Below are positions 45,565 through 47,530 of a stretch of DNA of 64,000 nt, piece after piece. The position numbers were made by a program, and so were the translations under genes. Position 1 is the first letter of the stretch. Every line of letters begins with the position of its first letter. The stretch comes from Gammaproteobacteria bacterium (GTDB lineage: Bacteria; Pseudomonadota; Gammaproteobacteria; Eutrophobiales; Eutrophobiaceae), in the NCBI GenBank assembly GCA_030829985.1, contig JAURNW010000018.1:1-64000 (forward strand). Direction: 5' to 3'. Below the pieces are notes generated by a model. The model was not told where the DNA came from. It ran no database searches and saw nothing but the letters and a program-made list of their open reading frames with translations.

Positions 45565-45969
45565 ATGAAACATATTTCTCAACGACAGGGTGGAATGACA
45601 GCACTTGGCATATTTATTATATTGGCAATGCTAGCTTGTTTTGTATTATTTGGTTTAACAGCGTTTCCTTTGTATAACGAGTATTTTGCCGTTACTAGTG
45701 GTATGCAATCGGTAGCCAATGCAGATCCAAAGCTGAGAACAACCACAAAAGAGGCTAGAAAAATATTCCTACGAAATGTGGAACTTAATAATGTGGAACG
45801 ATTTACAGATAAGTCAGTAAAAGAATTGGTCAATGTTCAAAAGTCTAAAGATGGCAAAAAGAAATACTTGAACGTGAAATATCAGGCTAGTAATAAACTC
45901 TTTAAAAATATATTTCTTATGATGGATGTAGATGAAACCATTGAGCTGACCGGGAGTGCGCCACAATAA
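45565..45969 (+). CDS. DUF4845 membrane protein
   Basis: 134 residues: short basic N-terminus with QRQGGMTALG, one membrane segment (14-37) and a periplasmic domain of about 95 residues. The N-terminus looks like a prepilin cleavage site, but the family is not part of a pilus. DUF4845 stands between lepB and rnc in Pseudomonas and relatives; function unknown. Its stop codon region overlaps the start of rnc. Confidence 0.85.
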   Translation: MKHISQRQGGMTALGIFIILAMLACFVLFGLTAFPLYNEYFAVTSGMQSVANADPKLRTTTKEARKIFLRNVELNNVERFTDKSVKELVNVQKSKDGKKKYLNVKYQASNKLFKNIFLMMDVDETIELTGSAPQ

Positions 45970-46634
45970 GTAATTTTATTGATTATATATTCAAAGATAA
46001 GAGTCTGTTAGAGCAGGCTCTGACACATCGTAGTATAGGAAATCATAATAATGAAAGACTTGAATTTCTGGGTGATGCAATATTAGGGTTTATTATAACT
46101 GACGCGCTTTATCACAAATTTCCAAAGGCATCTGAGGGTGATTTAACGAGATTAAGGGCATCCTTGGTCAAAGGGGAAAAGCTCGCGGTAATCAGTAGGG
46201 AAATTCAACTTTCAAATGAGATAAGACTGGGCACAGGGGAGTTAAAAAGTGGTGGTTGGCGACGGGATTCGATTTTGGCCAACACGCTTGAAGCCCTGAT
46301 AGGGGCCATCTATCTTGACTCAAATATTGACTTGTGCCGTGAATTTATACTCAACTTGTACAAATCGCACCTTGATAAAATAGAAACTTCAGATATTAAA
46401 AAAGATGCCAAAACGCAATTACAAGAATATCTCCAGTCCCGCAAAGAAAACGTCCCTGTGTATGAAGTGATTTCGGAAGTAGGCTCATCACATGAACCTG
46501 AATTTACTGTCTCATGTAAAGTCGATTTATTTGATGAAGTTATTTTAGCGAAAGGAAAGAGCAAACGGAAAGCAGAACAGGCAGTAGCAAAAAAAGTCAT
46601 AGCGATGCTGTCATCAAACGAGTTGAAAAATTAA
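45966..46634 (+). CDS. rnc: Ribonuclease III, apparently starting at ATA
   Basis: 222 residues if it starts at 45966. Family sequence begins only a few residues later (FIDYIFKDKSLLEQALTHRS), followed by the catalytic signature ERLEFLGDAILG, EALIGAIYLDS and a C-terminal double-stranded RNA binding domain. The frame has no ATG, GTG or TTG until 46164, which would remove the catalytic signature. An ATA at 45966 has GGGAG nine bases upstream, and lies where a normal ATGA overlap with the gene before would be; A for G at 45968 keeps that stop (TAA) but spoils the ATG. An ATT at 45978 has no binding site. The enzyme processes rRNA and double-stranded RNA. Confidence 0.9.
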   Translation: MSNFIDYIFKDKSLLEQALTHRSIGNHNNERLEFLGDAILGFIITDALYHKFPKASEGDLTRLRASLVKGEKLAVISREIQLSNEIRLGTGELKSGGWRRDSILANTLEALIGAIYLDSNIDLCREFILNLYKSHLDKIETSDIKKDAKTQLQEYLQSRKENVPVYEVISEVGSSHEPEFTVSCKVDLFDEVILAKGKSKRKAEQAVAKKVIAMLSSNELKN

Positions 46635-46636
46635 AT

Positions 46637-47530
46637 ATGGATGAATTCAAAACAGGCTATGTAAGCATTGTTGGCAGACCTAATGTTGGAAAATCAACGC
46701 TATTAAATCATCTTATTGACCAAAAATTGAGTATTGTTTCCAGAAAACCGCAAACGACCCGCTGGAATCTACAAGGCATAAAAACATCTCCCGAATCGCA
46801 AATAATATTTATCGATACTCCGGGATTGCAAAAACAACCCACCTTAGCCTTAAATAGGCATATGAATCGTGAAGTATCACACTCACTCGATCATATCGAT
46901 ATCGTCTTATTTATTGTTGAAGCATTGAAGTGGAACGAATTAGATGAGAATGTTGTTGAAGCGTTAAAAAATATCTCATCAAACAAGTTATTTCTGGTGA
47001 TCAATAAAATAGATAAAGTTTCTGATAAAAGTCAGTTGTTATCTTATATCGAAACAATCTCCGGGATGATTGAGTTTAAGGAAATAATTCCAGTTTCAGC
47101 AATAAAAGAAAATGGTTTAGCTGATTTGGAATCATTAATTGTCAGAGACCTGCCGGTTGCGCCAGCACAATTCCCGGAAGACCAAATCACTGATCGTAAT
47201 GAAAGATTTTTTGCTGCAGAGTTTATAAGAGAGCAATTAATTTCGCGACTTAGTGACGAACTGCCTTATCGTTTATCTATAACAATCGATGAATTTAAAG
47301 AAGATGAAAATATCATACATATTCATGCTTGCATCTGGGTTGAAAAGAAAGGACAAAAATCAATAATCATTGGAAAAGAAGGCAAGGTATTAAAAGCAGT
47401 AGGTCAAGCAGCAAGGCTTGAACTGGAAAGGTTGTATGGAAAAAAAATAAATTTAAAGACCTGGGTTAAAGTTAAAAGCAAATGGGCTGATTCGGAACAA
47501 GCATTAAAACAATTTGGTTATTACGAATAG
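46637..47530 (+). CDS. era: GTPase Era
   Basis: 297 residues. GTPase domain with P-loop GRPNVGKST, DTPGLQ and NKIDKV, then a C-terminal KH domain (IIGKEGKVLKAVGQAARLE) that binds 16S rRNA. Needed for 30S assembly. Two bases after rnc, so translationally linked. Confidence 0.96.
   Translation: MDEFKTGYVSIVGRPNVGKSTLLNHLIDQKLSIVSRKPQTTRWNLQGIKTSPESQIIFIDTPGLQKQPTLALNRHMNREVSHSLDHIDIVLFIVEALKWNELDENVVEALKNISSNKLFLVINKIDKVSDKSQLLSYIETISGMIEFKEIIPVSAIKENGLADLESLIVRDLPVAPAQFPEDQITDRNERFFAAEFIREQLISRLSDELPYRLSITIDEFKEDENIIHIHACIWVEKKGQKSIIIGKEGKVLKAVGQAARLELERLYGKKINLKTWVKVKSKWADSEQALKQFGYYE

Follow-up and report, generated by a model that had tools for sequence, protein, structure and literature searches.

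The question raised by this locus is how RNase III can be made at full length from a gene, rnc, whose reading frame offers none of the usual start codons ahead of its conserved sequence. In the window, by which is meant the whole 64,000-nucleotide stretch of DNA that was analysed, the open rnc frame runs from 45945 to 46634 with its stop at 46632-46634, and, as a preliminary description of this DNA had pointed out, it holds no ATG, GTG or TTG (canonical codons) before the TTG at 46164. The codons that precede this first canonical codon number 73 of 229, the largest share among the 55 long non-overlapping frames of the window, the runner-up having 26 of 104.

The rnc reading frame and its product

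The genes of the region lie in the order lepB, DUF4845, rnc, era, recO, and the coordinates of the relevant features are collected in Table 1. The rnc frame opens with GCT GAC CGG GAG TGC GCC ACA ATA AGT AAT TTT ATT GAT TAT ATA TTC. Family sequence had been placed near 45978, and the match to TIGR02191 does begin there, at residue 12 of the open frame; the ATA at 45966, the GGGAG site ahead of it and the ATAA in which it sits are likewise present as described.

Table 1. Features of the rnc region, in positions of the window.
Feature	Position	Strand	Basis or remark
DUF4845 protein gene (PF16137); its TAA (45967-45969) overlaps ATA	45565..45969	+	Frame, profile match
rnc frame ahead of ATA; open, non-conserved, without canonical start	45945..45965	+	Frame, relatives
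GGGAG, Shine-Dalgarno-like, 9 nt before ATA	45952..45956	+	Duplex of -6.9 kcal/mol against the 16S rRNA tail as presumed by us
Candidate start codon ATA, overlapping the DUF4845 stop (ATAA)	45966..45968	+	Sequence; same overlap in relatives
RNase III gene rnc; 222 codons and the stop when taken from ATA	45966..46634	+	Frame, profile matches, catalytic acids
TTG, first canonical start codon of the rnc frame	46164..46166	+	A start here loses E38, E41, D45, E65
era, next gene, with ATG	46637..47530	+	Frame, profile

Against TIGR02191, the profile of bacterial RNase III, the frame scored 239.7 bits (cut-off 166.25), and in Pfam its product matched PF14622, PF00636 and PF00035, that is, an RNase III domain plus a dsRNA-binding domain. 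Residues E38, E41, D45, E65 and E117, which we take to be the catalytic acids of the Escherichia coli enzyme (its sequence, its numbering and their role being assumed here), are present in the window and in 19/19 rows of the clade defined below, the first four being encoded before the first canonical codon. At the position aligned to E. coli D114, presumably a metal-site residue and one which the profile does not demand, the window has an asparagine (AAC at 46281-46283, in ILANTLEAL). The same residue is found in 48 of the 50 family loci, and 40 loci from elsewhere in the class have N (7), D (28) or G (5). As this position varies among RNases III, membership of the family of enzymes rests on the profile and the other acids.

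Start codons among relatives

RNase III was searched for in 96 genomes, including that of the window, and a match was found in 90. Within the family, 49 of 53 genomes gave a match, the same 53 being the whole sample of the order. Starts were read at all 50 family matches (two of them from genome G034) and at 40 of the 41 matches from the class (G058 was left out), a locus being scored as without a canonical start where no ATG, GTG or TTG occurs from the upstream in-frame stop to the phenylalanine of the YxF motif in the first helix. On this definition the canonical start is absent from 21 of the 50 family loci vs 2 of the 40 other class loci, and all 11 of the same-genus relatives searched are without one.

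In a tree of 57 RNase III rows made with IQ-TREE, 19 rows from genera g1, g7, g17 and g6 form one clade with support of 97/97; the outgroup of this tree is not one side of a branch, as two of its seven rows (L053, L085) fall among family rows. A canonical start is missing from 18 of the 19 clade rows, each from its own genome, so the non-canonical state is conserved, and a recent mutation private to the genome of the window is ruled out by its clade-wide extent. A general loss of canonical starts in the clade was not seen, era keeping ATG in 14/14 parsed clade loci (of 19). The tree requires at least four changes of start state within the family, whose non-canonical loci outside the clade are L020 (genus g3, ATA in ATAG), which has no firm position on the tree, and the identical pair L025/L026.

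The RNase III rows of this pair, both without a canonical start, come from genomes of different genera (L025 from G034, L026 from G026), and their identity is perhaps due to contamination of one assembly. G034 also carries a second rnc (L033).

Translation ahead of the first canonical codon

To assess selection in the region ahead of TTG 46164, dN/dS was computed for a stretch of 58 codons, from the YxF phenylalanine up to the last codon in front of the place taken by that TTG in the window. For the 55 of 171 clade pairs with finite dS the median was 0.075 and the maximum 0.17, synonymous change being saturated or undefined in the remaining pairs. The stretch is under purifying selection and is therefore translated; taken with the retention of the catalytic acids, this means that the full domain is made and that the window needs a start other than ATG, GTG or TTG. 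Eight clade rows (L003, L005, L006, L009, L010, L011, L014 and L019) have a canonical codon 5 to 10 codons beyond the YxF phenylalanine, from which a slightly shorter protein might be made, and in the other eleven, the window included, the next canonical codon is at least 26 codons past it. The open stretch is depleted of canonical codons at a borderline level only (1 in 297 codons vs 4.7 expected, p = 0.049), so that active avoidance of ATG is no more than a possibility.

The overlap with the DUF4845 gene

An ATA, ATC or ATT lies within -5 to +5 nt of the DUF4845 stop in all 18 non-canonical clade rows, the chance of such a codon being about 0.31 per locus when estimated from the codons of that frame within DUF4845 (165 of 1878), for loci which are related and not independent. 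In 13 of the 19 clade rows it is an ATA at -1, forming ATAA or, in L007 and L014, ATAG; L005 and L011 have an additional ATT at +2. Elsewhere the codon is an ATC at +2 (TAATC; L003, L009), an ATA at -5 (L017) or +5 (L019) or, in L018, an ATC directly after the in-frame TAA of DUF4845, both genes being in one frame. The sole clade row with a canonical codon, L016, has GTG at -1 (GTGA) and also ATA at +8. Two candidates near the stop make the exact start ambiguous in L005, L008, L011, L012 and L015. In 18 of the 19 clade rows the open rnc frame overlaps DUF4845 by 4 to 34 nt, and at L020, outside the clade, it opens at the ATA itself.

Elsewhere in the family, the same overlap reads ATGA (L021, L024), GTGA (L029) or TTGA (L023), or there is a GTG at -5 (L022, L030; GTGAATGA). 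The preliminary description had suggested that ATGA be looked for in relatives, and that one G-to-A change had turned ATGA into ATAA. The former is found in two of them, and the latter fits the family as a whole, ATGA being the probable ancestral state; the change is not, however, one of this genome and would belong to an ancestor of several genera.

Components of translation initiation

Candidate tRNAs were scanned at 22 loci picked by hand out of 30, from 38 matches. An initiator-type tRNA (L112) has a CAU anticodon and a GGG/CCC anticodon stem and looks normal, and on these features a changed initiator tRNA was rejected. The infC gene of the window's genome (L093) has ATC behind GGAGG, as is usual for IF3 genes, and an ATG 14 codons further up was judged to lie in the end of the preceding gene. 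In the family, the codon behind the purine-rich site of infC is ATC, ATT or ATA in 18/18 parsed loci (of 30); with this usual arrangement, discrimination by IF3 is presumably normal.

Shine-Dalgarno pairing was compared at 37 of the 50 family loci, 7 having no candidate near the stop and 6 an upstream frame longer than 200 codons; one included locus, L035, has as its nearest upstream frame (51 codons) one that is not DUF4845. The median was -8.0 kcal/mol for 20 loci on ATA, ATC or ATT vs -5.7 kcal/mol for 17 canonical family loci (p = 0.0009), a difference to be considered with caution, as the best of several candidates was taken, of which ATA/ATC/ATT offer more, and the rows are related rather than independent. 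The 20 loci are the 19 clade rows, L016 being scored on its ATA, and L020. In L016 itself pairing is -1.9 for the GTG vs -7.8 for the ATA at +8.

Comparison of rnc and era across the class

For the class, 184 genomes with a completeness of 90% or more were sampled, of which 176 had an RNase III match; 33 of the 176 were left out. The eight genomes without a match were G055, G083, G102, G119, G123, G139, G201 and G209. Outside the family, 145 rnc loci (40 + 105) were considered and 143 parsed, L197 and L236 giving no anchor. Two of the 143 (L053, L086) are without a canonical rnc start, and none was found among the 103 parsed loci of the second set. L053 (G063), which has no canonical start before YxF, reads TGG where its genus-mate L153 has TTGA. 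In L086 and L156, from the two sampled genomes of genus g43 (family f26), the only candidate is CTG, which forms CTGA with the upstream stop, and the sister genus, also with two genomes, has TTG and GTG; the putative CTG start is an independent non-canonical start of rnc, in a genus unrelated to the clade.

As a control, era was without a canonical codon at none of 64 parsed loci (of 90), and in a second set (113 of 143 parsed) at one, counted within 26 codons. An ATG within 26 codons of YxF is lacking at 79 of 143 rnc loci vs 12 of 113 for era, and in the 113 paired loci it is absent from rnc alone in 55 and from era alone in 7 (exact sign test, p = 2.4e-10), a comparison in which some families are sampled twice and which counts available codons, not proven starts. 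This suggests that rnc tends to weak starts across the class, the AUA clade being the extreme case, and that there is selection on its output.

Discussion

The explanation we consider likely is that RNase III is made at full length from AUA, by means of the Shine-Dalgarno site and probably translational coupling, and that its output is most likely kept low. Nearly the whole clade is without canonical starts, and purifying selection acts on the part of the gene before the first canonical codon. From the overlap and its persistence we infer that initiation takes place precisely at AUA, and the start is well supported. The ribosome would be placed by the GGGAG upstream, and the AUA at 45966-45968 would be read by the ordinary initiator tRNA as fMet, giving a protein of 222 residues with the initiator. 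A second, probable route is termination-reinitiation, in which ribosomes ending DUF4845 at the overlapping UAA restart on rnc. In the relatives this role would fall to an AUA, AUC or AUU no more than 5 nt away from the DUF4845 stop. Synthesis from these codons would most likely be low because they are poor starts and are discriminated against by IF3; low output from AUA is plausible in view of published reporters with other AUA/AUU starts, and it may be what selection keeps. RNase III synthesis may moreover be tied to the translation of DUF4845 and to the activity of IF3, possibly rising when IF3 falls.

Other origins of this arrangement have to be weighed. The preliminary description had left room for a sequencing or assembly error at 45968, hiding a true ATGA and a normal rnc start. 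One base change would restore the usual overlap and the assembly is a draft of 35 contigs, but the 18 clade rows from separate genomes that lack a canonical start speak against such an error, and its chance is vanishingly small. It is extremely improbable that a short protein begins at the later TTG while the full-length gene is dying. No canonical codon of the frame precedes that TTG, and a gene finder that accepts ATG, GTG and TTG alone would presumably choose it; against this, four of the acids would be lost, purifying selection acts in the clade on the part that would be missing, and the place of the first canonical codon differs among relatives. A fusion protein, formed by frameshifting or stop readthrough out of DUF4845, would agree with the rnc frame running open into DUF4845 in all but one of the clade rows. 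However, rnc of L018 shares its frame with DUF4845 and is separated from it by an in-frame TAA directly before the ATC, so that a DUF4845 frameshift cannot supply RNase III there, and the frame of L020 opens no earlier than its ATA. Nor is there a common slippery sequence, the last DUF4845 codons being CAA, CAG, GAA, GAG, AAA, AAG or GAT, and a fusion is very improbable.

A neutral origin deserves more attention, and is possible if on balance unlikely. Given translational coupling with DUF4845 and a good Shine-Dalgarno site, AUA would suffice as a start, and low RNase III would not be selected for; ATG would have become ATA when the DUF4845 stop drifted from TGA to TAA in an AT-rich ancestor. 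Of the stops in the window, TAA is used most often (31 of 55 frames, with 15 TGA and 9 TAG), the stronger Shine-Dalgarno pairing of the clade looks like compensation, the depletion of canonical codons is borderline, and one clade member, L016, has GTG. Yet the step from ATAA back to ATGA is a single transition which keeps the DUF4845 stop, and only 1 of 19 rows is canonical; canonical codons are few although synonymous sites are saturated in most clade pairs, and the more frequent lack of ATG in rnc than in era across the class suggests selection on output.

The preferred reading, a weak AUA start that holds RNase III low, can be widened into a general start-codon throttle on gammaproteobacterial rnc, tightened in places to AUA/AUC/AUU or CUG and linking RNase III to IF3 and DUF4845. 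This takes the state "no ATG, only GTG/TTG", found in about half of the sampled rnc loci, as the general one, and we think it rather unlikely as a whole, although the frequent absence of ATG compared with era suggests that the throttle may extend more widely among rnc genes. If it were true, the capacity for RNA processing would be linked to the capacity for initiation. For the clade itself a simple hypothesis can be offered, that of a processing nuclease kept scarce and possibly tied to IF3. Starts other than ATG, GTG or TTG that persist over long evolutionary times are known for only a few chromosomal genes of bacteria, and RNase III would add one; gene finders that allow ATG, GTG and TTG alone would presumably present the RNase III of these genomes as truncated and apparently dead.

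A close known system is the rnc-era-recO operon of E. coli, with the same enzyme and the three genes in this order. RNase III of E. coli regulates itself by cleaving its own leader RNA, whereas control by a weak start codon would act on translation. In the same organism pcnB is limited by its start codon, as Binns and Masters reportedly found in 2002.

Both infC (IF3) and pcnB of E. coli start at AUU, according to PMC4245954, and like them rnc is a chromosomal gene whose candidate start lies outside ATG/GTG/TTG, in the AUH class. It differs from them in that the start overlaps an upstream stop and AUA is the commonest codon, and rnc of the window is not known to be autoregulated. Natural starts in Staphylococcus aureus include AUA for infC, ccpN and citZ and AUU for cvfC1, and reporters with AUA or AUU reached about 10% of the AUG level in poor medium and, for one gene, up to 30% in rich medium (PMC13009471). 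As in that work, the AUA of rnc stands behind a good Shine-Dalgarno site; the organism there is Gram-positive, the genes are others, and the starts were mapped by experiment, in contrast to ours, which are read from sequence. Studied in vitro, IF3 prefers strong pairing at the third base and selects against mismatches (PMC10158994). In a search of open-licence PMC literature, no paper was recognised, from the portions of text returned, as describing a non-canonical rnc start. With its candidate AUA, rnc is a new gene in the known, small kind of non-canonical starts to which infC and pcnB belong.
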